34,182 nucleotides of DNA, from positions 1 through 34,182 of IMG/VR virus record IMGVR_UViG_3300033148_004142, one strand, 5' to 3'. Position numbers and translations under genes: made by a program. Of the stretch, positions 751 to 33,275 are shown one piece after another; within the stretch, counting starts at the first letter, position 1; each line of letters opens with the position of its first letter. Below the pieces are notes generated by a model. It did not search any database. It had not been told where the DNA came from and saw only the letters and a list, made by a program, of their open reading frames with translations. The DNA is from a virus.

Positions 751-773
751 AAAGATTCAAATTTTGAACCTTT
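751..773 (-). repeat. 23-bp module-boundary palindrome, copy 1
   Basis: Palindromic element with AAAGATTCAA and TTGAACCTTT arms around a 3-base centre, and one arm mismatch. It lies between the 1011-aa gene and the small secreted protein. It is one of six copies (10921, 17991, 22682, 24599, 33253), all in non-coding gaps at operon module boundaries. Read in the sense of transcription (minus strand), the downstream half is GAATCTTT. Confidence 0.85.
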
Positions 774-776
774 ATC

Positions 777-3700
777 TCATTCACCACCATGATACTTAAT
801 AATACTTTTTGCCAAGCCAGGGAAACCTTCCTTCCCAAATCCTCTGACCATTTGACCAATCTGAAGTCCACCAGGAGCATAGATAAGACTACTACGGATA
901 GTAGCCTTCATCTGCTTCTTTGCCGATTCCATATCTGAAACTCTAAGTGGAATACCACCTGCAACTACAAGAGTCTTAACTGCATCATGAAAGGGCTTCC
1001 AAGAAGCAGGAAGATCAAAGTCAAGAGGAAGAGGGCCAGTCCAAACTGTTCTTCTTGCTGTCCCAGGCCCCCACAAGGGGCCAGCTATAAGATGATAAGC
1101 TACTGCACTTGAAAGAGTCCAAGCAAGCATCTTATTTGCTGAGGCACTTATATCTCCAGATCGAAACATCCACTTACCAAGAGCACTTCCATAGTTCATC
1201 CACCAAGTCTGGAATACCATAGCAGTCCTTGTAACTCCACCACCTACCTGAGCAAACAATGGACTATCCGCAGCTCCATAAAGATACTGAGTATCTGCGA
1301 TCACATCTTTAACCCAAAGAGACTTAGCCTCTTCCCAGGACTGCCTTGTCCCAATTCGAAGTTGCTCCTCAATCTCAGCTTGGACCCAACGCTCCCTACT
1401 ACTTAAGTTAAGTTTCTTCTTAAACCTTTCAATCCCTCTTGTCCCAGTCTCAAGCTTACCTCCTTCTCCAATTCGGATATACTTATTAAAGAAGTATTCC
1501 CACTTGTCAAGAGCCGCTCCGCCAGTGACATACCTATTATGCCTATCTGATCCCTTGAACATCCACATAGCATAATCTCTCATCTTCTGCATTTGAGGGA
1601 GACTAAATTCCTTTTCTCCAATCCTAAGAATCTTCCCATATTGACTAACTGCAGGACGAAAAAGCAAGTCCGGGGAATACTCCGTAATAGCTCCAATATC
1701 TCGAATATACTTCCTCGTCTCAGGTTGAAAGGCTCTCCGATAACCTCTTGCAAGCCAATAGAAGTCCTTAATCCCTCCCATATCTGCAGGAACCATTAGA
1801 AATGGTTGGATGTAGTTCCTCATAGCTGAGAAAGGTTTGAATCCAATGCCTCCCATATAGATAAGATCATTGACTGTCCAAGCAAGCCTCATAACTCTAC
1901 TGTCATCCCAATGAGTACCAAGAAGCCTATTGACCATCCGAGCAACCTTAGCATCTACCTCACTTGCTTGACCAAGCATTCTCTTAACGTAGTGGTTACT
2001 ATAACTCCGAAGCTTAGGAGGCAAAGTCTTTATAGCCTCATTCCACTCTGGAAGATGAGGATTAACAAAGACCTCTTTACTTTGACTTGTTGCTCGTCTC
2101 TCTACTACCCTTCCAAGATCTGAGACTGCTTCTTCTGCGGTTTCCTTTGTTCTGGTTTTAACGAATCCGGCTGTTGCTTTACTCGGTGGTAGTTTTGTCA
2201 TTCTTCCAGGTCTGTCAAAAAGCCTTTGTCCATAGTTCTCCAGGTAGTGAGGAAATCCTACCTTAGCTCCTTTACCTCTAAAGGTAAGAGCTTTAAGAAG
2301 TGTCTTTTCGGCTCCAATAGCTTCTTTAGCTTCAAAGTCCAAGAACCAATGAGGATGGTCTTTAGCAAGAGTACGAAACCTACCAAGGATATTCTCAATT
2401 ACTCTTACCTTATTCTCAAAACCTAAGTTATTTCCTTCAGCAAGAACTTCAGTAATATAAGAGTCCATCTTCCCAGAAAACCTACTGGTCAACCTCTCAA
2501 GTCCATTGACTCCTTCTGGTGTAAGTCCTCTCAAGTGAAAGAGTTGAGGAATCTTTTCCTTCATAAAATTGGCGTACATATAGTCTGTCCAAACTGCATA
2601 GGACTTAGCAATTCCTTGGATTATAGGAGAAGTCTGTGAGAACCTTGCTTGAATAGCTACTTGTGGAGCACCACTTCCTTGAGCATCATCCATCCATCTT
2701 ACAAGTTTCCCAGCCTCATCCCACTCAGCTTGACTGTAGCCTGCTCGAAACTCCCCTCGCTTAGTAATCTTCCCAAGTCCTCTATTTACCTGGATAAGAT
2801 GGAATTGCTTGACAGCCATATAAGAAGCTGAATTAGCGTTCCCAAAGGCTTTCTTAATAGGCTTATAAATTCTACTCATAGTATGATACATACCTTCCCA
2901 AGGCCCAAAGACTTTCCTTATTGGAAGAATATAAGCTCTATTAGTTATGTCTAACTTCCTTAGTACTTTACCCTCATTAAGAAGTGTATCCAAAAGGACT
3001 TTGCTGAAATCCCTTGCTCCGATGGTATCCCAAGTGAGTCTCTCTACTTCCTTCGCCCCGAAGAGTCTCCCCACCTGGACTTTAAACAGATCATCTACTT
3101 TATAAACTCTATCACTTCCAATGAGAGTTTTAAAATACTTCTTAAACTGCCTCTTAAAGAATTCAAGTTTCTGTACTTCTCTTGAGGTTGTCCATCGCTC
3201 CATAAGTTTCTGAGCGGGTCTCCTCAAATCTCCCATTTTGTTAAAGATTTTCTCTGCATTATGAATAGGAGAATATATCCAACTTCCAGACCTTCCTACA
3301 GGAGCCCAAACATGACTCTTTCCTCTTAGGACTGCCTCTACTTCATCTCCACTAAGCCCATAAGTCTTTGCAAGCCCAGTCCTTGGAGTAACATATTCAA
3401 AGGTTTCAAGCTTCCTCATAAGACCATCAAGTACAGACTTAGGCTCAAGATTAATAGACCTCATTCCAAAAGAAGGAAGTCTACGACCAGCAACAGCCAG
3501 AGGCTTAAGCAACGGCTTGGCGGTAACCTTCAAGCCTTTGCCAATCCAACCAAACGGCAGAAAAACAGCAGCATCAAGACCAAGATGGACAACCTTCTGG
3601 CCCAAAGAACCAGCAGCAAATTCCTTCCTTCCTGAAGGAAAGAGGAAAGTTGCGAAGGGAACAATGTCAGCTGCAGTACGCAGAGCAGCAAAAGTCCCAG

Positions 3701-3812
3701 GACTCCAAGCAGCAAACTCCTGCTCAAATCCCTCAAAGGTAGGACCGATCTCAGGAATAGGAATAACTTCCCTTAGTACTTTGGGTGTAGTTCTAATAGG
3801 TTCAACTATCAT
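777..3812 (-). CDS. Very large virion protein, candidate internal/ejection protein
   Basis: A 1011-aa protein, the largest in the window. It has no signal peptide at its start. Residues about 80-110 hold a hydrophobic stretch; the rest is rich in basic and aromatic residues and looks mainly helical. Near the C-terminus there are Trp- and Gly-rich hydrophobic segments (for example TWWMNYGSALGKWMF) that could insert into membrane. I see no lysozyme or peptidase motif. Its start overlaps the stop of the 511-aa gene by ATGA, so the two are translationally coupled. Position after nozzle and fibre genes near the end of the late block, together with size, fits the internal virion proteins that podoviruses eject with their DNA. 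That role is inference; a tail or polyvalent protein is also possible. Confidence 0.6.
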   Translation of the reverse strand: MIVEPIRTTPKVLREVIPIPEIGPTFEGFEQEFAAWSPGTFAALRTAADIVPFATFLFPSGRKEFAAGSLGQKVVHLGLDAAVFLPFGWIGKGLKVTAKPLLKPLAVAGRRLPSFGMRSINLEPKSVLDGLMRKLETFEYVTPRTGLAKTYGLSGDEVEAVLRGKSHVWAPVGRSGSWIYSPIHNAEKIFNKMGDLRRPAQKLMERWTTSREVQKLEFFKRQFKKYFKTLIGSDRVYKVDDLFKVQVGRLFGAKEVERLTWDTIGARDFSKVLLDTLLNEGKVLRKLDITNRAYILPIRKVFGPWEGMYHTMSRIYKPIKKAFGNANSASYMAVKQFHLIQVNRGLGKITKRGEFRAGYSQAEWDEAGKLVRWMDDAQGSGAPQVAIQARFSQTSPIIQGIAKSYAVWTDYMYANFMKEKIPQLFHLRGLTPEGVNGLERLTSRFSGKMDSYITEVLAEGNNLGFENKVRVIENILGRFRTLAKDHPHWFLDFEAKEAIGAEKTLLKALTFRGKGAKVGFPHYLENYGQRLFDRPGRMTKLPPSKATAGFVKTRTKETAEEAVSDLGRVVERRATSQSKEVFVNPHLPEWNEAIKTLPPKLRSYSNHYVKRMLGQASEVDAKVARMVNRLLGTHWDDSRVMRLAWTVNDLIYMGGIGFKPFSAMRNYIQPFLMVPADMGGIKDFYWLARGYRRAFQPETRKYIRDIGAITEYSPDLLFRPAVSQYGKILRIGEKEFSLPQMQKMRDYAMWMFKGSDRHNRYVTGGAALDKWEYFFNKYIRIGEGGKLETGTRGIERFKKKLNLSSRERWVQAEIEEQLRIGTRQSWEEAKSLWVKDVIADTQYLYGAADSPLFAQVGGGVTRTAMVFQTWWMNYGSALGKWMFRSGDISASANKMLAWTLSSAVAYHLIAGPLWGPGTARRTVWTGPLPLDFDLPASWKPFHDAVKTLVVAGGIPLRVSDMESAKKQMKATIRSSLIYAPGGLQIGQMVRGFGKEGFPGLAKSIIKYHGGE

Positions 3813-5344: not shown

Positions 5345-5355
5345 ATTCTACTCCC

Positions 5356-5544: not shown

Positions 5545-5554
5545 CTTTTACTCC

Positions 5555-6175: not shown

Positions 6176-6177
6176 AA

Positions 6178-6339: not shown

Positions 6340-6357
6340 TTTAATTCTCCTTATATT

Positions 6358-10920: not shown

Positions 10921-10943
10921 AAAGATTCAAAAATTGAATCTTC
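10921..10943 (-). repeat. 23-bp module-boundary palindrome, copy 2
   Basis: Arms AAAGATTCAA and TTGAATCTTC separated by AAA: nine of ten arm positions pair. It lies in the 38-bp gap between the 108-aa gene and the adaptor gene. In the sense strand the downstream half reads GAATCTTT, as in the other copies. Confidence 0.88.
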
Positions 10944-17990: not shown

Positions 17991-18013
17991 AAAGGTTCGA
18001 TGTTTGAATCTTT
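17991..18013 (-). repeat. 23-bp module-boundary palindrome, copy 3
   Basis: Arms AAAGGTTCGA and TTTGAATCTTT with a centre of TGT, the most diverged copy (TTCGA instead of TTCAA). It overlaps the stop codon of the 93-aa gene by two bases and sits before the 97-aa gene. Confidence 0.8.
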
Positions 18014-18293
18014 ACTCATCTGATTCAACAACCTCTCCGGCTATATCCTCATCTTCTCCAAGTACATAAGGAGCAGTAACTTCTCCTCCTCCAGGAAGTG
18101 TATAGGTCTTCAACTCCGGTATATCCCTCGCCATAAGTCTGTCCATGAGATCTTTGTTCTGCAGCTCAAGTCTCTTAATATGCTCCCTAAGAACTACCAA
18201 AGCAGCAGTCTCCTTCTTAGCGGCAAGAAGCCTATGCTGGAGAAGTCCCTCAATTTTCTCAAGTAATTCAAATACCTTCTTGGCTTTAAACAT
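18012..18293 (-). CDS. Small coiled-coil protein with acidic tail
   Basis: A 93-aa protein. Residues about 5-55 form a long amphipathic helix with Leu spacing (VFELLEKIEGLLQHRLLAAKK, LVVLREHIKRLELQNKDL), probable coiled coil. The last 15 residues are very acidic. AGGAGG lies 7 nt before the ATG. No family is recognised; it is located between terminase and portal. The acidic tail mimics scaffold or DNA-mimic segments, which is only an analogy. Confidence 0.65.
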   Translation of the reverse strand: MFKAKKVFELLEKIEGLLQHRLLAAKKETAALVVLREHIKRLELQNKDLMDRLMARDIPELKTYTLPGGGEVTAPYVLGEDEDIAGEVVESDE

Positions 18294-20653: not shown

Positions 20654-22036
20654 CTACCTTCCAAGTTTCCTCTTAGCCCAGGTAATAACCTTTAGACTGT
20701 GTTTAGAAATATCTCCCAATATAAACTTGGCCACTGCATCAAATTCCTTTGGGTGTACAGACGTAGCTTCACCCCCTGGGCCATATACTAGGTCAACACC
20801 AATCTTATTATAAGGATTATCGTACCGTATATCAGTAAATTTAATATCATGCTCCTTGAAGTATTTAATTCTTCCTACTATTTTTTCGGGGGTGATAGGA
20901 ACCTTTCCTGTAGATAATCCTGTTACTTTAATTCCTTCTTCCCCCCACCTCTCGGCTATACCTGCAAGCTCATCCAGCTCCATTTCTCTAAGTTTATCTC
21001 CATACTTCTTCCCAACCTTTTTTCGTCTGAGAACTTCTAGATCATCTAATCCAAGAATATCCTTAATCTTTTCTTCTGATTTTCTAATATGAGGCCCATA
21101 AGGCATAGTTTGTTTTGGAAGTTTACTTCCATAAGATTCAAGAGCCTTCGCTCCCCTTATTGCCACAGGGATCTCTCTTTCTCCTCCTTGAGCAAAGCCT
21201 TCATATTTTCCTGTAGGTATTCCTCTACCCTCAAGCATTCCCATAGGGAACTTAGTTCCTTTTTCCATAAATTTACCGGTCTCTCTATCAGCTCCTAAAA
21301 CTTCCCTTAAGTCTTTAATTTGCTTTGGAGTATACACAGGGCCAACTGCTACTTTTCCAAGCTTTCTTTGTTTGAGTTCAAGTAGGGTACGCTTAGCAGT
21401 ATCTATAGGCAAGTTAGACTGTACGATCTTCCACTTGTCTTCTTGTGGAAAGAATGCTTTAATCTTACCCATCATCTTGGACTCATATTTTTGAAGCTCA
21501 TTACTCCAAAATCTATCTTTATATGGCATTAACTCAAATTTAGAGACTTCATTAAGTTTCCATCTTGGAGCATACTCAATCTTTGGTTTAGGGAGTTTAC
21601 TTCGGTAGGCCTCAAGAGCCTCTCGAAGGAATTGACTTTTAAAGCCTTCCTTCATTCTCATGCGAGGATCCTTCATCCCTCTTGCTTTGCGTAGACTTGC
21701 TCGATAAGCAGAAGCGAGTTGTTTTGCATAGAGTTCTGTAGCTTCTTTCCCAAAGGCTATAGCTTCTTCGGTACTTTTAAAAGAGGGAATAGGATATTTT
21801 GTCCTCCGTATCATTCCTCCAAAGCCAGCAAGAGCAATATTCCTAAGACGCTCCATTTGCTCTTCCTTAGGAAGAAAAGCAAAGCCCTCAAGACTCATCC
21901 CCTTATGTGTGCTTCTTAAGAAGCCAGCAAGCCCTTTGCCTCCCCATTTAAGGAAGTCAGTAAGAAGGGTTGGAGGTTGAGACTTAATGAACTCTCCTCT
22001 TATTGTGCTGTACCAATCAGAGTTATCTGTAGGCAT
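20654..22036 (-). CDS. 460-aa basic protein inserted between TerS and TerL
   Basis: A 460-aa, strongly basic protein (many Lys/Arg, also Gly and Pro) that separates the terminase subunits. Its ATG overlaps the TerS stop as TAATG, so it is translationally coupled. The N-terminal 150 residues are helical (EEAIAFGKEATELYAKQLASA); the centre has conserved-looking loops such as GPVYTPKQIKDLREVLGADRETGKF; the C-terminus has FTDIRYDNPYNKIGVDLVYG, a beta hairpin. I recognise no domain. The position suggests a packaging or capsid-associated protein, or a moron. It has no signal peptide. Confidence 0.65.
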   Translation of the reverse strand: MPTDNSDWYSTIRGEFIKSQPPTLLTDFLKWGGKGLAGFLRSTHKGMSLEGFAFLPKEEQMERLRNIALAGFGGMIRRTKYPIPSFKSTEEAIAFGKEATELYAKQLASAYRASLRKARGMKDPRMRMKEGFKSQFLREALEAYRSKLPKPKIEYAPRWKLNEVSKFELMPYKDRFWSNELQKYESKMMGKIKAFFPQEDKWKIVQSNLPIDTAKRTLLELKQRKLGKVAVGPVYTPKQIKDLREVLGADRETGKFMEKGTKFPMGMLEGRGIPTGKYEGFAQGGEREIPVAIRGAKALESYGSKLPKQTMPYGPHIRKSEEKIKDILGLDDLEVLRRKKVGKKYGDKLREMELDELAGIAERWGEEGIKVTGLSTGKVPITPEKIVGRIKYFKEHDIKFTDIRYDNPYNKIGVDLVYGPGGEATSVHPKEFDAVAKFILGDISKHSLKVITWAKRKLGR

Positions 22037-22521
22037 TAGCCTTCTACCTCTACTTCAAGCAGTTCAGTTATCCCACTTCGTAGCTCTTCATCTGACATAT
22101 CTTTGACTTCCTTATGAGCATGGAAGTGGACATGTTTTTGAGGCACTGCCTTCTTCCCATATCCTGTCCTGTCAAGTATCTCAAGAGCAGTGTTCACTCT
22201 GCCCTTAATATCGTGCTCCTTATTCGTGAGGTGCTCATCCACTGTCTCCAGAGCTATTCCTTGACGGATTTCTAATTCCGTTCTCATGTCTACTGCTTCA
22301 TACTCTGCCTGAGCTTCCATTCGATTAAGCTCTGCAAGGAAGAGTGGAGAGTTAGTTATTACTGATATTTGTGTAGGGGTTATCCCAAAGAGCACAGCCA
22401 GCTCTCCTGGTCTCTTTCCTCCAGCTACCATCATCCTTGCCATACTTCTGTGCCAGGGTCTGAGTTGTGCTATAGTAGGAGTAGTAGTTTGCTCTCGGTC
22501 TTGAATTGCAAGTCTGCCCAT
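22036..22521 (-). CDS. Terminase small subunit
   Basis: A 161-aa protein starting at the ATG at 22521 (AAAGGA nearby); a TTG one codon earlier is less likely. Residues about 22-60 hold a helix-turn-helix (MARMMVAGGKRPGELAVLFG then ITPTQISVITNS), as in TerS proteins that recognise the pac or cos site. Residues about 62-120 form the helical oligomerisation core. The C-terminal part carries a His-rich strand (KHVHFHAH) and acidic end. It is first in the late block and upstream of TerL, the expected order. Confidence 0.8.
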   Translation of the reverse strand: MGRLAIQDREQTTTPTIAQLRPWHRSMARMMVAGGKRPGELAVLFGITPTQISVITNSPLFLAELNRMEAQAEYEAVDMRTELEIRQGIALETVDEHLTNKEHDIKGRVNTALEILDRTGYGKKAVPQKHVHFHAHKEVKDMSDEELRSGITELLEVEVEG

Positions 22522-22551
22522 CAAGAGTGTCCTTTCTCTTTAGAGTTATCC

Positions 22552-22681: not shown

Positions 22682-22704
22682 AAAGGTTCAATATTTGAAT
22701 CTTT
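22682..22704 (-). repeat. 23-bp module-boundary palindrome, copy 4
   Basis: Arms AAAGGTTCAA and TTTGAATCTTT around a central AT-rich triplet. It lies about 105 bp upstream of the candidate late promoter and 160 bp before TerS, the farthest of the left-arm copies from a start codon. Confidence 0.88.
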
Positions 22705-22863
22705 CCTCGGAATTTATTCCCTCGTAGGGAGTCTCAAATTTCAGATGGGTAGTCTCTGGGCCTTTACCGCACCCCCAAAACTCTTAAATCCCCCCAGAGG
22801 CTTTTCCACCACCAGAAATGAATGACGCCTCATTCAATATAAAGTATGACACCTTTGTAAGTT

Positions 22864-22878
22864 ATTGAAATCATTGGA
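22864..22878 (+). repeat. ATTGAAATCATTGGA direct repeat, copy 1
   Basis: Exact 15-bp match to the consensus; the context AGTTATTG is shared with copy 4. All five copies point the same way and lie in non-coding DNA. Confidence 0.8.
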
Positions 22879-22889
22879 GAATCAGCATA

Positions 22890-22994
22890 TTAGTTAGTCT
22901 TAACTAACATTGTTACTCCTACCTATCAAACTTATCTAACAATAACATTGTTACCACTGAGTAACAGTATTAGCCAGTGATGATAGTGTTACTC
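22890..22994. promoter_or_regulatory. Cluster of TAACA/TGTTA palindromes
   Basis: TTAGTTA-GTCT-TAACTAA (22890-22907) is followed by TAACATTGTTA at 22905-22915 and again at 22943-22953, both perfect palindromes. GAGTAACA (22959-22966) and TGTTACTC (22987-22994) form a wider pair, and TGTTACTC also occurs at 22911-22918. The density suggests binding sites for a dimeric regulator close to the rightward promoter. Confidence 0.55.
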
Positions 22995-23019
22995 ATACCA
23001 AACAATGTTTGAGTATACC

Positions 23020-23047
23020 TTGACAAGTGTGCTTTGTGTGTCATAAT
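23020..23047 (+). promoter_or_regulatory. Rightward early promoter (sigma70 type)
   Basis: TTGACA at 23020-23025, a 16-bp spacer and CATAAT at 23042-23047 (five of six matches). The likely transcription start near 23054 places three GTACAA-N4-TTGTAC palindromes 20-130 bp downstream, where a bound protein could block elongation. It reads towards the first early gene. Confidence 0.65.
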
Positions 23048-23075
23048 TGATACATGATCAGGCAAAATACACACA

Positions 23076-23091
23076 GTACAAGATATTGTAC
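23076..23091. promoter_or_regulatory. GTACAA-N4-TTGTAC operator 1
   Basis: Perfect 16-bp palindrome with 6-bp arms and GATA centre. It is one of three with identical arms within 122 bp, the hallmark of a dimeric repressor array. Confidence 0.75.
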
Positions 23092-23105
23092 TTCGATACA
23101 ATTTA

Positions 23106-23121
23106 GTACAATTATTTGTAC
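23106..23121. promoter_or_regulatory. GTACAA-N4-TTGTAC operator 2
   Basis: Same arms as operator 1, centre TTAT. Its start is 30 bp from operator 1, close to three helical turns, so both face the same side of DNA. Confidence 0.75.
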
Positions 23122-23131
23122 CTTCCAAGTC

Positions 23132-23146
23132 ATTGAAATCATTGAA
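23132..23146 (+). repeat. ATTGAAATCATTGGA direct repeat, copy 2
   Basis: Fourteen of fifteen bases match (ATTGAAATCATTGAA). It lies between operators 2 and 3. Confidence 0.7.
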
Positions 23147-23181
23147 CAAATCCCTTGAGATACATACTTATACATACATGG

Positions 23182-23197
23182 GTACAAGAGTTTGTAC
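23182..23197. promoter_or_regulatory. GTACAA-N4-TTGTAC operator 3
   Basis: Same arms, centre GAGT. It lies 76 bp from operator 2, also close to a whole number of turns (about seven). Confidence 0.75.
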
Positions 23198-23237
23198 TTT
23201 ATCAAACGACTGTTCGGGTAACGATTTGGCCTAACAT

Positions 23238-23252
23238 ATTGAAATCATTAAA
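23238..23252 (+). repeat. ATTGAAATCATTGGA direct repeat, copy 3
   Basis: Thirteen of fifteen bases match (ending TTAAA instead of TTGGA); the most diverged copy. Confidence 0.6.
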
Positions 23253-23274
23253 GATTTACGATTTGGTCAGATTT

Positions 23275-23303
23275 GGCATGCGGCTTGCATATTAATGTGA
23301 TAA
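23275..23303 (+). promoter_or_regulatory. Possible second rightward promoter
   Basis: TTGGCA beginning near 23275 is followed after about 17 bases by TGTGAT, a weak -10. If used, transcripts would begin just before the boxB-boxA element. The -10 overlaps the TGTGAT-AAC-ATCACA palindrome, so a bound regulator would block it. Low confidence. Confidence 0.3.
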
Positions 23304-23319
23304 CATCACAAGGCGTGAT
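23296..23319. promoter_or_regulatory. GTGAT/ATCAC palindrome array
   Basis: TGTGAT-AAC-ATCACA (23296-23310) is a perfect palindrome, and the same ATCAC can instead pair with GTGAT at 23315-23319 across a 5-nt loop. This gives either an operator or two exclusive hairpins in the leader RNA. Confidence 0.5.
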
Positions 23320-23322
23320 GCA

Positions 23323-23358
23323 CTTCCGAAAGGAAGGTAATTTTGTTCTTTGACAATT
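23323..23358 (+). promoter_or_regulatory. rrn-like boxB-boxA antitermination leader
   Basis: CTTCC-GAAA-GGAAG (23323-23336) is a small stem with a GNRA loop, followed 7 bases later by TGTTCTTTGACAATT (23344-23358). That matches 13 of 15 positions of the E. coli rRNA boxA region TGCTCTTTAACAATT, both differences being transitions. Hairpin first, boxA second is the order of bacterial rRNA leaders; lambda nut sites have the reverse. BoxA RNA binds NusB/S10 and makes RNA polymerase resistant to Rho. The element precedes the first early gene. Confidence 0.65.
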
Positions 23359-23366
23359 GAATATCG

Positions 23367-23398
23367 ATTTAGGCATTTCACAGGTGACTTCTGTCGTT
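23367..23398 (+). repeat. 32-nt inverted repeat, upstream arm
   Basis: Complementary to 23910-23941: 28 of 32 positions are Watson-Crick, three more are G-U in the plus-strand RNA and one is A-C. The arm starts 8 nt after boxA and ends 27 nt before the start codon of the first early gene, which the two arms enclose. Confidence 0.85.
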
Positions 23399-23425
23399 AA
23401 TCCAATATGAAGGGAGATTAACAAT

Positions 23426-23896
23426 ATGGAAGGAAAACCTGATGTAATTGAGCTAATAGCTCACCCAGTGGTACTTTTCCCTGATTTTAAGGGCAAGAGG
23501 ATCGAAACCGACAAGCGGTTCGGGGATAAGGTTAACAAGGCAACACTAAGTTGTCCAGTTCCCGAAACCGATGAAGATGCCAAGAGGATGTATGGTATTG
23601 ACTTGGCCGGATTATTTAACCTGGGTGTCAAGACTCACGTGTATGGCGAGAGCTGGTTCGCTGCCCATATCAAGGAGAGTGTCAAAAATGGTATAGACCT
23701 CAACAGTGATGGCTTTATCAAAGGCCTCCAGGCTGGTTTTGAAAGTGCAGTACATCGAACTCCCAGAGTCGCGGGAGCAGGTAGTGGCGCAAAGGCCGAA
23801 GCCATGAAGTATAGGGCACTCAAACAGTCCCTGGGTGTTGAAAGTGATGAAGAGCTGGCGGAAATTATAGCCATGATGAAAAAGAAAAAGAAGTAA
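23426..23896 (+). CDS. First early protein, unknown function, enclosed by a long inverted repeat
   Basis: A 156-aa protein with a strong AAGGGAGATTAACA ribosome binding site. N-terminal half is beta-rich with GKRIETDKRFGDKVNKATLS (about 24-43); the middle is Gly/Phe-rich (GLFNLGVKTHVYGESWFAAH, residues about 65-84); the end is helical and closes with KKKKK after AIIAMM-type acidic-hydrophobic helix. A Gly/Ala linker (RVAGAGSGAKAEA) precedes it. No family recognised. Its codon use is richer in G+C than neighbours, fitting high expression or separate origin. Being first behind an antitermination leader and inside a long RNA stem, it is probably made early and in large amounts, for example a nucleic-acid-binding or host-takeover protein (inference). 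Confidence 0.8.
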   Translation: MEGKPDVIELIAHPVVLFPDFKGKRIETDKRFGDKVNKATLSCPVPETDEDAKRMYGIDLAGLFNLGVKTHVYGESWFAAHIKESVKNGIDLNSDGFIKGLQAGFESAVHRTPRVAGAGSGAKAEAMKYRALKQSLGVESDEELAEIIAMMKKKKK

Positions 23897-23909
23897 AACC
23901 ATCAACCTA

Positions 23910-23941
23910 AACGGCAGGAGTCACCTGCGAAGTGCCTAAAT
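23910..23941 (+). repeat. 32-nt inverted repeat, downstream arm
   Basis: Partner of 23367-23398. It begins 14 nt after the stop of the 156-aa gene and ends 27 nt before the start of the 46-aa ORF. No direct target duplication flanks the two arms. Confidence 0.85.
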
Positions 23942-23968
23942 ACTACATAATGAAAGGAGGTGATAGTT

Positions 23969-24109
23969 ATGACTTTTTGGCTTTGGTTTCATGATCTTAT
24001 TCCAGAGGATTTAGATAAGATGATAAAACTAAATGATGAAACTTTGTTTATAGCAAACTGTGCGCCATGTGTTTATAGTGAAACTGTCTGGGTATGGTAT
24101 GAATTATAA
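23969..24109 (+). CDS. 46-aa small early protein
   Basis: ATG at 23969 preceded by AAAGGAGGTGATAGTT, one of the strongest ribosome binding sites in the window. The product (MTFWLWFHDLIPEDLDKM...) is acidic, Trp-rich (four Trp) with an APC-type CAPC pair near residue 31. No family recognised. It lies directly after the inverted-repeat stem and ends 17 nt before an intrinsic terminator, so it and the 156-aa gene form a two-gene early unit. Its small size, acidity and aromatic content resemble phage inhibitors of host enzymes, but this is only suggestive. Confidence 0.65.
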   Translation: MTFWLWFHDLIPEDLDKMIKLNDETLFIANCAPCVYSETVWVWYEL

Positions 24110-24126
24110 GGAGCTAATCCACCAAG

Positions 24127-24150
24127 GGGAGCAGAAATGCTCCCTTTTTT
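24127..24150 (+). terminator. Intrinsic terminator of the first early unit
   Basis: GGGAGCA-GAAA-TGCTCCC (24127-24144) forms a perfect 7-bp stem with a GAAA loop, followed by six T. It separates the first early unit from the main early operon. Confidence 0.9.
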
Positions 24151-24218
24151 CTTTACCCAAAAATCTTACCTCAGCCTCCCAGGAGCTTGGCAGCCGTAAA
24201 CTACTGGATTGCTAAGTT

Positions 24219-24233
24219 ATTGAAATCATTGGA
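24219..24233 (+). repeat. ATTGAAATCATTGGA direct repeat, copy 4
   Basis: Exact match in the context AAGTTATTG... followed by CAATT. Copy 5 follows 41 bp later, close to four helical turns. Confidence 0.8.
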
Positions 24234-24259
24234 CAATTCCAATACCCTGCCTCTAACTC

Positions 24260-24274
24260 ATTGAAATCATTGGA
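24260..24274 (+). repeat. ATTGAAATCATTGGA direct repeat, copy 5
   Basis: Exact match; followed by CATTTT. The pair of copies 4 and 5 leads into the large palindrome. Confidence 0.8.
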
Positions 24275-24302
24275 CATTTTAGCCGACAAAATTACGTCAA
24301 CT

Positions 24303-24526
24303 CTCCGACTCTACTGTAGGGTAGACACCAACCCATACCCCGCCCAAAATTGAAGGTTGACTATGAATTTTGTTTTGTAGTAGTAATTCTGTAGTAGTAG
24401 TTTTAGTTTTTTATTTTTTTTAAAGAAACAAACAACTACTACTATTAAACTCTACTATTAAACTTTACTCGAAACAATTAAAATTTCGGGGGACGGGTAG
24501 GTCGCTACCCTATGGTAGAGTCGGAG
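24303..24526. other. Large nested imperfect palindrome with AT-rich centre
   Basis: Outer arms 24303-24324 and 24505-24526 are complementary over 22 positions; the only two non-Watson-Crick positions are T-G and G-T, so RNA could pair all of them. A less exact pairing extends inward across C-rich and G-rich blocks. The inner arms TAGTAGTAGTT (24392-24402) and AACTACTACTA (24434-24444) close a 31-nt centre rich in T and A. Each outer arm can also fold locally (GGGTAG-GTCG-CTACCC at 24495-24510). It can be a cruciform in DNA or a long structured RNA. Confidence 0.7.
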
Positions 24527-24532
24527 CGTAGA

Positions 24533-24598: not shown

Positions 24599-24621
24599 AA
24601 ACATTCAAAATTTGAACCTTT
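24599..24621 (+). repeat. 23-bp module-boundary palindrome, copy 5
   Basis: Sense (plus) strand begins AAACATTCAA and ends TTTGAACCTTT. The left arm has C and A where the other copies have G and A/G, so two arm positions do not pair; the downstream half GAACCTTT is intact. It lies 47 bp before the -35 of the main early promoter. Confidence 0.82.
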
Positions 24622-24668: not shown

Positions 24669-24697
24669 TTGACAAAACATCCTTCATATGGTATGGT
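24669..24697 (+). promoter_or_regulatory. Main early operon promoter (sigma70 type)
   Basis: TTGACA at 24669-24674, a 17-bp spacer and TATGGT at 24692-24697 (four of six matches). The transcript would start near 24704, about 53 nt before the 39-aa ORF, and drive the long plus-strand operon. Confidence 0.65.
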
Positions 24698-28045: not shown

Positions 28046-28047
28046 GA

Positions 28048-28831: not shown

Positions 28832-28842
28832 GGGAGGTAATT

Positions 28843-29115: not shown

Positions 29116-29302
29116 TAGAGAGGAACATAGATATTATACTTGTGAACATTACAATGATTGCTTAGATAAAGCAGCTAAAGGTCGTTGGGAGAGTTTTACT
29201 TGCCTTTACTGCTCTTGCAACAAACTAATGAAGGAGGAAGAATGGAAGAAGCAAGAACGGATGAAGAAGTTACGGATATCAAAGAGGCCCTTAAGCTTAT
29301 AG
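29069..29302 (+). CDS. 77-aa Cys/His zinc-site protein
   Basis: Residues about 22-50 carry YYTCEHYNDCLDKAAK... WESFTCLYCSC: Cys-X-His-Tyr-X2-Cys-Leu then Trp-X2-Phe-X-Cys-X2-Cys. I have seen this motif in short proteins of Desulfobacterota genomes. The ribosome binding site is weak, so translation may depend on overlap with the gene before. The motif argues that the frame is real although it overlaps genes on both sides (47 and 61 nt). Confidence 0.6.
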   Translation: MTSPKPIPWTTLHTSDREEHRYYTCEHYNDCLDKAAKGRWESFTCLYCSCNKLMKEEEWKKQERMKKLRISKRPLSL

Positions 29303-29559
29303 AGGTAATAGTTCTTGGACCTGGGCCAGAAGTATGGGCAGAAGCACTCATGAAATCAGAAAGAGCTGTTCCTCTTGGGCTGCCAGAATCAGTCTATAAC
29401 TTCCATCAGAAACAAACAGCTCCTCTTTTAAATCTTGTCTTTCAGAAAGTCTTCTTATACGGACTTCGGGCATTAGTTGAGGAAGTAGGCCCAAAAGAAC
29501 TAATTAAGAGACAGGAACAACTTAAGAAATTTTCCAAGGGAGGCCAAGATGCTGGATAA
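29242..29559 (+). CDS. 105-aa early protein of unknown function
   Basis: Start at 29242 with AAGGAGGAAGA upstream. A longer frame to 29185 lacks a binding site. Helical, acidic N-terminus (MEEARTDEEVTDIKEALKLIE), then Leu/Val-rich helices (LNLVFQKVFLYGLRALVEEV). No family recognised. Overlaps the nuclease start by 11 nt. Confidence 0.65.
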   Translation: MEEARTDEEVTDIKEALKLIEVIVLGPGPEVWAEALMKSERAVPLGLPESVYNFHQKQTAPLLNLVFQKVFLYGLRALVEEVGPKELIKRQEQLKKFSKGGQDAG

Positions 29560-30484
29560 GGAACTTAGAGAACTTGGCCCTCCGAAGATCTACGATAATA
29601 CTATACTCAGTAACATGACTAAGTGTCCTCGTAACCTCTATTGGTTTCTTCGAGGCCTGGATTACAAGATCTCACCCACTTACTTCACCTGGGGCAGAGC
29701 CCTTGGTGTAGGCCTCAATACCTGGCATGTTACTCAGGGGAAGGAAGAGCCGAAGATGCGGTTGGCCAAAGCTATTGTAGATGCTCAGGAAGAATGGGAA
29801 AAGGATAACCCAGTAGAAATTGGTGATAACACCTGGGATAACCTTGAGAATTGCCTCAAACTCTACGTTGAAGTCTATGGAGTAGAGGAGCCTTGGACTA
29901 TGCTATACGACACAGGAGAGCTTGGCTTTGCTCTTCCAATTCCAGGAACCTCAATCTCCTACGGAGGAGCTCTTGATGCGCCAATAGTGTGGAATCCCTA
30001 TGGAATCCTTGTAAGGGAGGATAAATCTACTGGGGGCTACATAACTGATGCCTACCTCGATCAATGGAATCATGCTTCCCAAGTTACTGGATACCTCTGG
30101 GGGCTTCACCAAGTCACAGGTGAGGAACCCTTCGGAGCCTACATGAATATAGTAAGTAAGAGGCCTCGGAAGGAGTCACAAGATAGATTCTACAGGCTTC
30201 TCGTCAAGCGGAGTGAGTGGGAGCTTGCCCAATTTATGAGAGATACAGTACTTCTTATTGATGATATTAGGAGAGAGTATGACCGTTGGCTATGGCCGAA
30301 GCTCGGAGAAAGAGATCCTATTAACTGTGCTGGGGGCATGGGAAGGAGTGCTTGCCTCTACCGGAGACTTTGCAAGACTGAAATGGAACCTTGGGAGCTG
30401 GAAGAAACCTATGACTTTGACCAAGAGTTCCTATGGAGAGAGAAGAAATGGGAGCCCTGGAAGAGAAAGGGGGAGAATGAATGA
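29549..30484 (+). CDS. PD-(D/E)XK nuclease, Cas4/RecB-like with Fe-S cysteines
   Basis: A 311-aa protein with nuclease motifs in order: Asp143 in GALDAPIV, Glu157-Asp-Lys159 in VREDKSTGG, and QVTGY (Gln178-Tyr182), the QxxxY motif of RecB/AddB/Cas4. Cys26 (TKCPRNLYW) and Cys260, Cys269, Cys275 form the four-Cys set that holds a 4Fe-4S cluster in Cas4 and AddB; His60 lies in the N-terminal region. It probably degrades DNA ends, acting with the Sak4-like ATPase and ssDNA-binding protein encoded downstream in phage recombination and replication. No helicase domain is fused. Confidence 0.85.
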   Translation: MLDKELRELGPPKIYDNTILSNMTKCPRNLYWFLRGLDYKISPTYFTWGRALGVGLNTWHVTQGKEEPKMRLAKAIVDAQEEWEKDNPVEIGDNTWDNLENCLKLYVEVYGVEEPWTMLYDTGELGFALPIPGTSISYGGALDAPIVWNPYGILVREDKSTGGYITDAYLDQWNHASQVTGYLWGLHQVTGEEPFGAYMNIVSKRPRKESQDRFYRLLVKRSEWELAQFMRDTVLLIDDIRREYDRWLWPKLGERDPINCAGGMGRSACLYRRLCKTEMEPWELEETYDFDQEFLWREKKWEPWKRKGENE

Positions 30485-30678
30485 AGTACACTTTATTTTT
30501 ATATTATCAAAGTAGTCCCAACATGAAAGTAGAACAGGGACTATTAGAAACCAAAGGGGTCTATTCAATGTATTACACTCGTATATCCTACTCTACAGAG
30601 GAAGAGTATATTACAAGTATCAAAGACCTAATTAAATCCTTAGAACAAAGATTAAAGGAGGTAACAAGCAATGGATGA
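30481..30678 (+). CDS. 65-aa early protein of unknown function
   Basis: ATGA-coupled to the nuclease. N-terminal strand with Tyr (YTLFLYYQSSPNMKVEQG), C-terminal helix (SIKDLIKSLEQRLKEV). Contains the AAAGGAGG site for the next gene. No family recognised. Confidence 0.6.
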   Translation: MKYTLFLYYQSSPNMKVEQGLLETKGVYSMYYTRISYSTEEEYITSIKDLIKSLEQRLKEVTSNG

Positions 30679-31006
30679 GACTGAAAAGTTAGTATGGAGC
30701 CAAAAGAACCGCAAACAAAAGATAGAAAGTTTAAATATCGAATTAAGTAAGGTGAGAACGAGAGTTTTTTCTTTAGAAGAACAGTCTTCTTGTCCTCATA
30801 GAATAGGAACTTGGAAACGAGAGATATGGACTCCAGCTAACAAAGAATTCGATTATAATAAGGTATGTAGTAAATGCAATAAGGTCTTAGCTCATGGTGA
30901 CATACACTATAAACTACAGGATGAACTTAAAGATGCAGAACAAAAAGTACAAGAACTTAAAATAGAAATTGAAAGTAGAAGGAAGGAGAAAATGACTAAT
31001 GTCTGA
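30671..31006 (+). CDS. 111-aa coiled-coil protein with a zinc site
   Basis: AAAGGAGGTAACAAGC precedes the ATG. Two coiled-coil helices (residues about 12-40 and 85-108) flank a Cys/His group: SCPHR at about 40-44 and VCSKCNKVLAHGDIH at about 66-80, a probable zinc hairpin. This helix-zinc-helix layout recalls Rad50-type zinc hooks or small SbcC-like fragments, but without an ATPase. That similarity is only in shape. Confidence 0.65.
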   Translation: MDETEKLVWSQKNRKQKIESLNIELSKVRTRVFSLEEQSSCPHRIGTWKREIWTPANKEFDYNKVCSKCNKVLAHGDIHYKLQDELKDAEQKVQELKIEIESRRKEKMTNV

Positions 31007-31190
31007 TAACTTATTTCTAAATAGTAAGATTATAAAAGTAGCTATTGACTCTGGAGAGTTTATAATCTCCACAGAAAATACCAAGATTTGGTTTGCTCTT
31101 ACTAATCCTATTGACTTCAAAAATCAAGTCCTCTGGGCTTATGAGAAGTACTTGAGGGAAAGGAAGGAGAAGGCTAATGACAGAAAATGA
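30999..31190 (+). CDS. 63-aa early protein of unknown function
   Basis: Overlaps neighbours by 8 and 14 nt; AAGGAG lies about 13 nt upstream. Small alpha/beta protein (IIKVAIDSGEFIISTENTKI). No family recognised. Confidence 0.6.
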   Translation: MSDNLFLNSKIIKVAIDSGEFIISTENTKIWFALTNPIDFKNQVLWAYEKYLRERKEKANDRK

Positions 31191-31368
31191 TAAAAGAATT
31201 AGGGTCTTGGAAATGATAGCGACAGACATGAAAGACGATGCAGAAAACTTTGATGGTCAGCCTTTTGATGGAAAGACCGTCGCTGAATACTTTGGAAGTC
31301 AGGGGGCAGCTATATCAGCATTGGCTGGTATTATGAAGTCAATCTTAGAACAAATAAAAACGAAGTAG
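31177..31368 (+). CDS. 63-aa early protein of unknown function
   Basis: GGAAGGAGAAGGCTA precedes the ATG. Helical ends with a DGKTVAEYFGSQGAAISALA loop. No family recognised. Confidence 0.6.
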   Translation: MTENDKRIRVLEMIATDMKDDAENFDGQPFDGKTVAEYFGSQGAAISALAGIMKSILEQIKTK

Positions 31369-31379
31369 GAGGTAGACCT

Positions 31380-31583
31380 ATGAAACTCGAGGAAACTAAG
31401 CTTTGTATAAAATGTGGAGAGATATTCGATGTTCCTACCCCAGGACACTGTCCTTGCTGTAATGAGGACTCCTGGGTCTGGGTTATGGCATTTATGAGTA
31501 GTGATGTAAAGGAGGAACTCTTTAAGACCGGAGTTCTTTATAATATATCAACTACAGCAAACATAGGGAAGGCAGGTGATTAA
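31380..31583 (+). CDS. 67-aa zinc-ribbon protein
   Basis: CIKCGEIFDVP (about 9-19) and CPCCNEDSW (about 24-32) form a compact four-Cys zinc ribbon. GTAGGAGGTAGACCT precedes the ATG. It overlaps the ATPase start as TAATG, so they are coupled and may be partners. Confidence 0.7.
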   Translation: MKLEETKLCIKCGEIFDVPTPGHCPCCNEDSWVWVMAFMSSDVKEELFKTGVLYNISTTANIGKAGD

Positions 31584-32398
31584 TGCTTAAATCAACAGTA
31601 GCCAAGAAAGCCGGAGTCCTTGAAAGGGTTATCCCAGCTCGAGATATGGAGATAGGGGAGAACTATCTAATTAAAGGATTCCTTGCTGGGCCAAGTGGAA
31701 GTGGAAAGACCCAATCCTCAATAACTCTCCCAAAGACTAAAGAGAAGCCTCTCCTTCTTGTTGACTATGATGGAAGAGCTGAGACTGTAGCAGGAGAGGA
31801 GGCAGTTGTAGTTCTCAAGCTCTTTGACCCAAATCCAGATAGTCCTAAAGCTTGGGATGAGGGGGAGAGCCTCCGTAAGGAACTCTGGACACTTGCCAGA
31901 GGAGAAGATTTCCCTTACTCCGGAGTTATTGAGGACTCCCTTAGTATGATGGCAAGAATAGCAATGAATAGTGCAGTCTTGCTTGACCCGAAGAGAGGTC
32001 TTGGCGGAGCTCCGGCAAAGCAACATTGGATGCCTCAGATATACTACCTCGTAAAGCACATCAACTCTATGAGAATGCTCCCATGTCACTACGTTCTTAC
32101 TGGACACATGGAACTCCTTGCTGATGAGGAGAGTGGAGCTATAAAAATCCTCCCCAAAGTGACGAGAAGTCTTCGAACAGAGCTTCCAGCTTGGTTCAAC
32201 GAGACTTACTATACCCATAGGGAAAGAGGGAAGGATAAGATTCAGTATTACTGGACTACAGCCGGAACTGGGAAGTATGAATTCTTTAAGAGTACCCTCA
32301 ACAACAAGGGGAAATATTGGACTGATCCAGTAGAGATTAACTTTGACAAATCTCCTGTGGGGTTTGAGGGACTACTAAAGAGGAGGTTTGGGAAGTGA
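31583..32398 (+). CDS. Sak4/AAA_24-type RecA-like recombination ATPase
   Basis: A 271-aa protein. Walker A is GPSGSGKT at 36-43, followed by LLVDYDGRAE (58-67) and a Walker B-type SGVIEDSLS (113-121). PCHYVLTGHMEL (about 168-179) fits the core strand and sensor of RecA/AAA_24 proteins. Sak4-like proteins of this size promote single-strand annealing with an SSB. The gene lies two genes before a MazG gene and three before the probable SSB, and after the Cas4-like nuclease, a layout typical of phage recombination modules. Confidence 0.8.
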   Translation: MLKSTVAKKAGVLERVIPARDMEIGENYLIKGFLAGPSGSGKTQSSITLPKTKEKPLLLVDYDGRAETVAGEEAVVVLKLFDPNPDSPKAWDEGESLRKELWTLARGEDFPYSGVIEDSLSMMARIAMNSAVLLDPKRGLGGAPAKQHWMPQIYYLVKHINSMRMLPCHYVLTGHMELLADEESGAIKILPKVTRSLRTELPAWFNETYYTHRERGKDKIQYYWTTAGTGKYEFFKSTLNNKGKYWTDPVEINFDKSPVGFEGLLKRRFGK

Positions 32399-32757
32399 CC
32401 ATTGACTGGCAAGCTCTTGCAGAGCGGAGAAGCTACCCAAATATTAAGAGTCTCCTTATTGACCGATACTACAAGAAGGATGAGAATAGTATCCAGATCG
32501 GTGAGTATATTGGAGCTACTGATGCCTCAGTAAGAAATATTATGAGGGCTCTTAATCTCCCAAGGAGGCAGAAGGGACATTCAGTAGGAGCAGGAGTTCT
32601 TGCAAGGCTCATAGGGATAAGAGAGGGAGATAGAAGTCTCCTTGATGCAGAACAACTTGCTAAGAGAGTAGGAGCTCATCCTACTACAGTGAGGAGACTT
32701 ATGGCAGAGAATAATTTAACTTATAAAAGGAGGAAGGAGAATGGAGAAAATAGATAA
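32395..32757 (+). CDS. Protein with two helix-turn-helix motifs
   Basis: A 120-aa protein starting with GTG in a GTGA overlap with the ATPase stop. HTH 1 at about 31-54 (SIQIGEYIGATDASVRNIMR) and HTH 2 at about 83-107 (LDAEQLAKRVGAHPTTVRRL) resemble tandem sigma-region-4 or resolvase-type HTHs. The C-terminus is basic. It may be a DNA-binding regulator or an adaptor of the recombination module. Two HTHs in one chain could bind a palindromic site as found repeatedly in this genome, but there is no evidence for the pairing. Confidence 0.7.
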   Translation: MTIDWQALAERRSYPNIKSLLIDRYYKKDENSIQIGEYIGATDASVRNIMRALNLPRRQKGHSVGAGVLARLIGIREGDRSLLDAEQLAKRVGAHPTTVRRLMAENNLTYKRRKENGENR

Positions 32758-33157
32758 TAAGGTAGAATACAAAGATTGGAATGACACTAAAATAATGAAG
32801 CATACTTGTCACTTGGACTTTGTTGACTTTAGCCAAGCCAACATTAAAAGATGTGAGGATGTTTTTCACCCCTTAGATTCCTGGTCTTTGAGTGATTGGG
32901 CTACTGCTGCTGTAGGAGAGCTTGGTGAAGCATGTAACTTAATTAAGAAATTAAATCGAGGTGAAAATATACCACTTGATTTAATAGCGGAAGAGTTGGC
33001 TGACTGTGTTACTTACATTGATTTGCTTGCAACTCGAATGGAGAAAGAACTTATGTACGAACTTATTAAGAAGTTCAATAAGGTTTCCAACAAAAAAGGG
33101 AGTGATGAGTATCTTAGAGGTAATGTACCACAAAGACAATTCTTTAATATTACTTGA
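32741..33157 (+). CDS. MazG-like nucleotide pyrophosphohydrolase
   Basis: A 138-aa protein. AAVGELGEACNLIKK (about 56-70) and EELADCVTYIDLLATRM (84-100) are the two helices with the Glu/Asp metal ligands (Glu60, Glu63, Glu85, Asp88) of all-alpha NTP pyrophosphohydrolases. Such enzymes hydrolyse NTPs or (p)ppGpp to monophosphates and are common in phages. AAAGGAGGAAGGAG precedes the ATG. The N-terminal 45 residues have extra Cys/His (MKHTCHLDF). Confidence 0.8.
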   Translation: MEKIDNKVEYKDWNDTKIMKHTCHLDFVDFSQANIKRCEDVFHPLDSWSLSDWATAAVGELGEACNLIKKLNRGENIPLDLIAEELADCVTYIDLLATRMEKELMYELIKKFNKVSNKKGSDEYLRGNVPQRQFFNIT

Positions 33158-33245
33158 TACTATTTGTAATCGTAATAGTGAGTCTTTATTAATAGTTTAT
33201 ATTGATCAGCCATTTCCAAAGGAAGGAGGTGAGAAAGAACCATAA
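33123..33245 (+). CDS. Possible 40-aa ORF
   Basis: ATG at 33123 with AGAGGTA upstream, overlapping the MazG-like gene by 35 nt and ending just before a 23-bp palindrome. Sequence has a hydrophobic middle (SLLIVYIDQPF). It fills an 88-nt gap. Evidence is weak. Confidence 0.3.
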   Translation: MYHKDNSLILLDTICNRNSESLLIVYIDQPFPKEGGEKEP

Positions 33246-33252
33246 TCCAAGG

Positions 33253-33275
33253 AAACATTCAATTTTTGAATCTTT
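33253..33275 (+). repeat. 23-bp module-boundary palindrome, copy 6
   Basis: Sense strand starts AAACATTCAA and ends TTGAATCTTT around TTT; only one arm position fails to pair. It lies 32 nt before the probable SSB start and marks a boundary inside the early arm. Confidence 0.85.

Follow-up and report, generated by a model that had tools for sequence, protein, structure and literature searches.

Dispersed non-coding palindromes in phages with a ParB-methyltransferase fusion: candidate parS-like sites

Our findings that six 23-bp palindromes lie in the gene gaps of a viral DNA stretch of 34,182 nucleotides (the window; IMG/VR record IMGVR_UViG_3300033148_004142) and that 14 of 14 related fusion-carrying records each have a dispersed palindrome family of their own (6-20 copies) reveal a genome-wide, symmetric and mainly non-coding DNA element. 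The family sequence changes between phages while the layout and some gene junctions persist. Judged from sequence and predicted fold, the palindromes may be parS-like binding and loading sites of a protein encoded by the phage itself, a ParB-methyltransferase fusion, and we put the probability of this at roughly 0.55. What is new here are candidate site families in phages that carry such fusions.

All six copies listed in a preliminary description of the window were recovered (Table 1), and the shared TTCAA-N3-TTGAA it reported is exact in five of them, site 3 having TTCGA in one arm. While a 21-bp pattern (up to two mismatches) matches exactly these six copies in the window, where 100 shuffles average 0.03 matches, the short core alone (up to one mismatch) is weaker evidence (6 versus a mean of 2.85, with 6 reached by 2 of 100 shuffles). 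Blind tests for palindrome families gave 6 members in the non-coding DNA of the window (maximum 3 in 20 shuffles) and, in a looser form on the whole window, 6 versus a maximum of 5 in shuffles. G001, a near-identical record of 45.8 kb that counts among the 14, has the six palindromes (site 1 with its centre at 3276) and a seventh copy, centred at 42310 inside the DNA polymerase gene (40013-42499), so the statement that no copy lies wholly inside a gene holds for the window and not for G001. Scanning IMG/VR with the window motif returned 11 stretches, five from G001 and a single match from each of six other records; the search of relatives that had been advised found copies in G001 and, in the other related fusion-carrying records, palindrome families of their own.

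Table 1. Palindromes and genes of the window discussed in the text
Feature	Position	Strand	Remarks
Site 1 (palindrome)	751..773	.	between gene 777-3812 and gene 382-720 (the latter described earlier as a secreted protein)
Site 2	10921..10943	.	38-nt gap between a 108-aa gene and a tail-adaptor-like gene
Site 3	17991..18013	.	36-nt gap of the 93-aa and 97-aa genes; shares bases with the stop codon of gene 18012-18293
Site 4	22682..22704	.	upstream of the small terminase gene 22036-22524
Site 5	24599..24621	.	47 nt before promoter-like TTGACA-N17-TATGGT, 24669-24697 (10/12 matches)
Site 6	33253..33275	.	32 nt before gene 33308-33832
Early gene, presumed PDDEXK/RecB-like nuclease	29549..30484	+	family in 14/14 compared genomes
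Sak4-like ATPase	31583..32398	+	phrog_124; family in 14/14 compared genomes
120-aa double-HTH protein	32395..32757	+	weak HTH matches
Early gene, described earlier as SSB	33308..33832	+	no PHROG or Pfam match

The consensus cores have the TTCA/TGAA half-site palindrome seen in parS in 9 of the 14 records (TTCA-N5-TGAA, with TTCA at -6 to -3) and C/G at positions ±4 (C at -4) in all 14. In G016 and G020 the half-site is TGTTTCA, equal to that of the chromosomal parS site, a 16-mer present in 15 papers. At the junction of site 2, four records (G008, G019, G024, G025) carry a site of another sequence and ten others are without a called site; the gene family that follows site 6 has a site on its 5' side in 6 of the 12 records carrying the gene. 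P values for single junctions carry no correction for how many were compared.

Our site table holds 185 sites from 20 records. It leaves out the window (near-identical to G001) as well as G013 and G017, whose sites are those of G007, and contains no entry for G023 or for the Vibrio, Microcystis and Manatee phages. Rather than being equally frequent inside genes, the outcome that had been named as contrary, sites avoid coding DNA (37 of 185 inside genes versus 156 expected), albeit with counts that favour gaps because seeds for G006, G012, G014 and partly G008 and G018 came from a non-coding-only search followed by a whole-genome scan, and with gene models that are simple ORF calls, so that a misplaced start codon may account for some of the 37 and part of the gap types may be misassigned. 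The module boundaries of the preliminary description survive only insofar as most sites sit in gene gaps. Junctions are occupied in 136 of 874 co-directional, 10 of 39 convergent and 5 of 38 divergent cases; co-directional gaps thus provide 136 of the 151 occupied junctions, and we saw no depletion in convergent gaps and no enrichment in divergent ones. Spacing is more even than that of random junctions (P < 0.05 in 6 of 12 records) or uniform positions (P < 0.05 in 7 of 12), the pooled P of 2e-8 treating records as independent.

The fusion gene of G001 (37567-39258) lies about 1.9-3.6 kb beyond the right end of the window. Its product combines a ParB_N nucleotide-binding domain (PF02195, 39.8 bits, cut-off 26.3), a ParB-type HTH and a beta-class DNA methyltransferase (PF01555, 34.2 bits, cut-off 26.7), with the GxxR and ENxxR residues (G61, R64, E95, N96, R99) invariant in 18 aligned fusions. 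A model of residues 1-200 (pLDDT 91.6) matches ParB, Noc and KorB (Foldseek E 2e-9 to 2e-5), most of its length aligning with them at Z 8.1-10.5 and rmsd 6.5-17.6, and by this model the fusion has a central ParB-type HTH domain. Alone, the HTH aligns with parS, NBS and OB complexes at Z 4.7-5.5, sigma factors being little below (4.4), and PF17762 is not among the Pfam matches of the fusion; nor is a ParB C-terminal dimerisation domain, and residues 225-471 align with methyltransferases (M.BceJIV, Z 24.3, rmsd 3.5, 213 aligned; CcrM, Z 23.4, rmsd 3.0, 216 aligned). DPPW is invariant in 14 rows of the methyltransferase part, which by catalytic and SAM motifs and by fold is a predicted beta-class DNA methyltransferase. 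Proteins of 68 and 96 aa are encoded beside the fusion. Among GTDB genomes a Tissierellia MAG gave the sole match (33%, residues 9-133), and further viral scans gave none beyond the query's own record. The new HTH regulator suggested for the rest of the genome comes close to the proposed ParB-type HTH past the window end. The 120-aa double-HTH protein was considered as reader of the sites as well; among the compared records, its homologues occur only in the window and G001, which makes it a poor candidate.

Do sites and fusion go together? A non-coding palindrome family exceeds all 20 shuffles in 16 of 19 fusion records versus 1 of 8 without ParB_N (Fisher p = 0.0009), and does so in every one of the 14 records whose fusion is G001's own or 38-50% identical to it. 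With distant records only, the numbers are 2 of 5 versus 1 of 8 (p = 0.31), so presence and absence are confounded with relatedness. Controls were hand-picked (seven named records plus G003 and G015 from terminase relatives, the latter two possibly fragments); six of the named ones come from the best 60 of 948 DNA-polymerase matches, the seventh being MW202482. MW202554 was counted as a fusion carrier on its Pfam ParB_N and methyltransferase, and G019-G026 and the named carriers were retrieved via the fusion itself. The sole control above its shuffles, vir526 (4 versus 3), owes this to palindromes of a G-run and a C-run, possibly terminators. Fusion carriers with no family above shuffles are the Microcystis phage, MW202489 and MW202554, for which candidate families emerged only via patterns picked after looking. 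G006, G023 and G026 exceed shuffles by one copy only; in G023 one of the four counted members is foreign to its family and the odd-centre test failed. Seven of 11 fragment records exceeded their shuffles, and the fusion is cut in the fragment G013, which is nearly identical to G007. In the looser, noisy whole-genome test, G006, G023 and the Vibrio phage are not above shuffles, and G012, G014, G015, the Microcystis phage and MW202489 are so via families other than the sites.

Consistent with the association, G003, which has homologous capsid (63%) and large terminase (52%) genes, is without ParB_N and without a palindrome family; its adaptor junction gap is 0 nt versus 13-38 nt in sited records. 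Speaking against the association, the 75-nt gap at its capsid 3' junction is no shorter than those of sited records. Co-variation, by contrast, does not single out the HTH or ParB part. G004 and G005, whose sites differ, are 44% identical in the HTH core and 77% in the methyltransferase part, while G022 and G024 present the opposite case (HTH cores 26% identical, site cores alike, GTTCAA). Mantel r against motif distance is 0.57 for the HTH, 0.62 for the methyltransferase part, 0.62 for capsid, 0.60 for DUF3987, 0.58 for DNA polymerase and 0.56 for the nuclease, as against 0.28 (9 genomes) and 0.13 (11 genomes) for the 68-aa and 96-aa neighbours.

As to how parS-like sites might work, the HTH of the fusion would probably read the palindrome. 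Somewhat short of even odds, the palindrome might then load a nucleotide-dependent clamp which slides off, as in ParB, Noc and KorB. More doubtfully, sliding might take the methyltransferase across the genome from evenly spaced entries and mark phage DNA, for example as protection against restriction. Taken as a whole, a self-loading, nucleotide-gated sliding methyltransferase that modifies only DNA with the right phage-private sites and marks the whole genome is a scenario we hold to be rather unlikely, if attractive: site divergence would let each enzyme know its own genome and tell self from host or rival phage. KorB-like silencing by the same fusion is the main alternative to the marking step. 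If the palindromes are fusion sites, short oligonucleotides suffice to test directly what such fusions do. A clamp known from chromosome segregation would then have taken on a new task, the marking or silencing of a viral genome through many entry points, and the divergence of ParB-type proteins and their sites among these phages would offer natural material for decoding ParB specificity.

In the silencing alternative the reader is the same and the job differs: the fusion would bind its sites and shut transcription units locally or distantly, methylation being secondary and the 68-aa and 96-aa neighbours perhaps partners. The ParB part does match KorB structures (Z 8.7 and 8.1), occupied junctions are largely co-directional, site 5 stands close before a promoter-like sequence, and KorB, a clamp of the ParB family, can silence a promoter whether its operator is 4 bp or more than 1 kb away, according to PMC11790492. 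Against it, divergent gaps are unenriched, convergent ones undepleted, spacing is even and many sites lie within operons (in co-directional gaps, the centre is at most 50 nt ahead of a start codon for 81 of 113 sites), so we consider a global silencer unlikely. Even spacing and the lack of enrichment in divergent gaps, the places expected for main promoters, likewise make the operators of a phage regulator that the preliminary description had in mind less likely.

Quite improbable to our minds are operators or stoperators of a separate phage repressor that blocks initiation and elongation from intergenic sites, as in L5-like mycobacteriophages. Dispersed intergenic sites and repressors diverging among relatives do resemble the 13-mer system of PMC9283540, yet L5-type sites lack symmetry and follow the direction of transcription while ours are palindromic and occupy convergent gaps, too. 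An intact GAAYCTTT half along transcription, reported for the window, is indeed present in six of six copies, and over 161 oriented sites (20 records) the lean goes the same way (upstream half worse in 57, downstream in 40, equal in 64; 138 versus 107 mismatches) but does not clearly generalise, there being no significant direction (sign test p = 0.10). Moreover, PF00589 integrases, the one class sought, were found in 0 of 16 records in a search that was positive in 14 of 14 control genomes, and the double-HTH protein of the window has no homologue in compared relatives except G001.

Similarly improbable is that another phage DNA machine uses the sites, be it for origins, packaging, recombination or genome folding, through a protein of the shared module. 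The PDDEXK nuclease (a Desulfofustis phage has a gene annotated 'nuclease' in the matching place), Sak4, DNA polymerase and DUF3987 are equally universal in the compared genomes (14 of 14; small terminase, 12 of 14), these proteins follow motif distance roughly as closely as ParB does, and folding would suit even spacing. Packaging and origins, however, normally need one or few sites rather than 6-20, and we know of no palindrome-reading domain in the nuclease, Sak4, DNA polymerase, DUF3987 or small terminase.

Directional promoters of a phage RNA polymerase, the other option raised at the outset, would fit sites close before genes (four window copies end 12, 15, 30 and 32 nt before a start codon, as described) and the intact GAAYCTTT, but are very improbable since the site is symmetric, convergent gaps are occupied, in co-directional gaps the centre of 37 out of 113 sites is no more than 30 nt from the start codon, so that a promoter could hardly fit in downstream, and the single-subunit polymerase we looked for by PF00940 gave 0 of 13 (11 related IMG/VR records of 42-51 kb, possibly fragments, and two named fusion phages; T7 positive). 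Least probable of all are RNA hairpins acting as terminators, processing sites or translation control: palindromes in gaps expected to be transcribed would suit them, but mismatched arm pairs on the mRNA-like strand are G.U in 91 and A.C in 98 cases, with no sign of selection for RNA pairing, and 0 of 35 terminator-like matches of the window fall on a site. The earlier statement that arm mismatches are uncompensated in RNA holds, and a phage-wide DNA rather than RNA site read by a phage protein fits our evidence.

Returning to parS-like sites of the fusion, the likeness to ParB/parS and Noc/NBS lies in ParB_N with its GxxR and ENxxR residues, the ParB-type HTH fold and the palindromic site; unlike them, the fusion adds a C-terminal methyltransferase and has 6-20 sites over a phage genome, with sequences that differ between phages. 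The half-site spacing of TGTTTCACGTGAAACA, which we take to be TCA-N2-TGA, was not found; the sites have TCA-N5-TGA, and for this reason we do not file them as parS. KorB of plasmid RK2 is likewise a ParB-family protein of a mobile element and has several dispersed palindromic operators (OB), yet to our knowledge no methyltransferase domain; siting at promoters of the KorB/OB type, taking gap type as proxy, was not found in the junction counts above, nor does the even spacing of the phage sites match it. L5-type stoperators share with our sites their dispersed intergenic position in phage genomes and differ in being asymmetric 13-mers oriented with transcription, bound, according to PMC9283540, by the monomeric immunity repressor of temperate phages. 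As for the fusions themselves, the main text of PMC12704722, in the parts drawn on, names no DNA sites or palindromes for them and offers anti-defence or phage-host interaction as guesses at their role; its ParB-CTPase::N6_N4 methyltransferase fusions, commoner in phages than in bacteria by the same account, have the same domain pair as the fusion of G001.

All six 23-bp palindromes of the preliminary description were confirmed at their positions in the window, and the observation both holds and extends beyond what was noted. A 21-bp pattern (≤2 mismatches) matches exactly these six copies and nothing else, with 0.03 expected, the 13-bp core alone being much weaker evidence. The window record (34,182 bp) may be a fragment; among its late genes are matches to families of portal, capsid and terminase proteins, and its early arm encodes a Sak4-like ATPase. 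Searching the fuller genome, the near-identical 45,849-bp IMG/VR record G001 (99% identity to the window in both capsid and large terminase), recovered all six sites plus a seventh within the family-A DNA polymerase gene. About 1.9 kb past the window's end point, G001 encodes a 563-aa protein with ParB_N and N6_N4 methyltransferase domains (hereafter the fusion). Separately, the G001 polymerase carries, N-terminally, a domain of the uracil-DNA-glycosylase (UDG) superfamily (PF03167, 63.9 bits). Caulobacter phage Kuura has a UDG-domain protein at a distance of two small genes from its polymerase. The window also holds three palindromes of another type, perhaps operators or origin repeats, clustered within ~125 bp between its divergent arms, in the same region as a five-copy direct repeat, and a 46-nt inverted repeat.

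A blind palindrome-family search, run without a preset motif on relatives in TerL and capsid, uncovered families of other sequence than the window's, and further families came from G019, G022 and G024, relatives retrieved via the fusion. Common to the families are an odd centre and C and G at four bases either side (14/14 cores); TTCA occurs in 9/14 cores, and a less strict outer element ~14 bases out from the centre brings the whole site to ~33 bp. A word like that of G005 has seven matches in record G010 (four in one of five shuffles), whose neighbouring gene suggests that its fusion gene lies off the contig. Sites are paired, 23-25 bp apart, in a Vibrio phage (L096), and MW202489, a phage with a distant fusion, has a larger palindrome, CCGSCGG-N-TTTAC-N6-GTAAA-N-CCGSCGG.

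Positions, L-numbers being sequence labels, and words of sites and associated features
Feature	Record	Position	Detail
Seventh site	G001	42310 (centre)	
Polymerase with UDG-superfamily domain	G001	40013-42499 (L045:13-2499)	
68-aa protein, function not assigned	G001	37081-37287 (within L044:17081-17570)	directly 5' of fusion gene; homologues in 12 records
96-aa protein, function not assigned	G001	37280-37570 (within L044:17081-17570)	directly 5' of fusion gene; homologues in 11 records
Three other palindromes	window	23075-23198	AGTACAAGATATTGTACT, AGTACAATTATTTGTACC, GGTACAAGAGTTTGTACT
25-nt direct repeat x5	window	22858-24278	common ATTGAAATCATT
Inverted repeat arms	window	24297-24342, 24487-24532	
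Family word, blind search	G002		ATCGGTTCAT-N3-ATGAACCGAT
Family word, blind search	G004		GTTTCGTTWAACGAAAC
Family word, blind search	G005		GATCCATTWAATGGATC
Family word, blind search	G007		GGCGTCAAWWWTTGACGCC
Family word	G019		TTGATTCA-N5-TGAATCAA; 15 sites
Family word	G022		GTTCAAWWWTTGAAC; 11 sites
Family word	G024		ATGTTCAA...TTGAACAT; 20 sites
Family word	Desulfofustis phage OP947158		TATGTCCCAA-N-TTGGGACATA; 9 sites
Less symmetric word	G023		TAAATNGTTACAWTGTGN3ATTTA; 11 copies, every one in gaps
Larger palindrome	MW202489 (L098)	467, 7755, 10263, 18875, 31471, 36638, 38786	
GCAAAATTTTGC-like word	MW202554	9849, 17591, 29559, 36106, 44135	
ParB_N + N6_N4 methyltransferase protein	MW202554	L121:573-1853	escaped clade HMM
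G-run/C-run palindromes, no ParB_N	vir526 (L122)	6820, 12918, 13417, 40523	
Junction 3' of capsid gene			sites in 8/15 records; 2.5 expected
Junction 3' of TerL			sites in 9/16 records; 2.8 expected
Junction 5' of 93-aa gene			sites in 7/12 records; 1.8 expected
Junction 5' of SSB-like gene			sites in 6/12 records; 1.9 expected

When non-coding palindrome families were tested automatically against 20 shuffles per record, 16 of the 19 fusion-bearing records exceeded all shuffles versus one of eight hand-picked controls without ParB_N (Fisher p = 0.0009), a comparison that relatedness confounds: distant records alone give 2/5 versus 1/8 (p = 0.31). The margin was a single copy in G006, G023 and G026, all with the fusion, and in the one passing control. 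The three fusion records that failed are distant ones with candidate families whose patterns were picked post hoc: the Microcystis phage (5 matches versus ≤1 in shuffles), MW202489 (10, of which 7 within 5 mismatches, versus ≤3) and MW202554 (5 versus 0). Visual inspection showed the strongest dispersed repeats in the eight controls to be ribosome-binding sites, terminator-like sequences and G+C-rich or coding-like repeats, with no palindrome family except in vir526, whose four palindromes may be terminators. The best single control is G003, which lacks both ParB_N and a palindrome family despite homologous late genes, although G003 is possibly a fragment with wholly different early genes.

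The sites avoid coding DNA, 37 of 185 lying well inside a called gene versus 155.6 expected (20 records), and orthologous junctions are reoccupied by sites of differing sequence. Four junctions stand out (see table); the remainder are not significant, for instance that 5' of the adaptor gene (5/14, p = 0.06). Between the 108-aa and adaptor genes, the window, G001, G008, G019, G024 and G025 carry five different words, one common to the window and G001; G002, G003, G006, G007, G009, G012, G021 and G022 lack a site, with gaps measuring -4 to 15 nt, and G004 and G005 have no called site in gaps of 40-41 nt. At the capsid junction gap length fails to separate sited from unsited records. Occupied gaps number 10/39 convergent, 136/874 co-directional and 5/38 divergent, so that convergent gaps are not depleted relative to co-directional ones and their enrichment is unproven (p = 0.11). 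In all 12 records with lengths of 42-51 kb, inter-site distances vary less than the random-junction mean (individual p < 0.05 in six; pooled p = 2e-8). The sites form a phage-private, genome-wide DNA set in a phage clade in which no tyrosine integrase was detected.

As for RNA hairpins, mismatched arm pairs on the mRNA-like strand comprise 91 G.U, 98 A.C and 202 others; since G.U does not exceed A.C, RNA pairing is not selected, which bears out the earlier view that arm mismatches are uncompensated in RNA. That view also held the upstream half to be the more variable: mismatch totals (138 upstream, 107 downstream) and site counts (worse half upstream in 57, downstream in 40, neither in 64) lean the same way, not significantly (p = 0.10).

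The most likely candidate for a reader of the sites is, to our minds, the ParB-methyltransferase fusion (probability roughly 0.55 to 0.6); whatever goes beyond this choice, we infer. A model of its N-terminal 200 residues (pLDDT 91.6) matched ParB, Noc and KorB along the greater part of its length, the modelled HTH alone matched their DNA-bound domains only weakly (Z 4.7-5.5), and the C-terminal part aligns with beta-class adenine methyltransferases, CcrM among them. The 68-aa and 96-aa proteins encoded directly 5' of it are possible partners, by analogy with KorA for KorB. Identities between the G004 and G005 proteins (44% in the HTH core, 77% in the methyltransferase) suit a switch of specificity; the G022/G024 pair, with similar site cores despite 26% HTH core identity, does not. 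Mantel tests of co-variation do not favour the HTH over other proteins. The link between sites and ParB thus comes from association, the form of the sites and what is known of the domains, not from co-variation.

Among the papers listed in searches of the open-access literature, we found no report of such sites. KorB is described as a ParB-family clamp and long-range silencer (PMC11790492). The nearest phage analogue of dispersed sites is the stoperators, which, as described in PMC9283540, are asymmetric and oriented, unlike the sites here.
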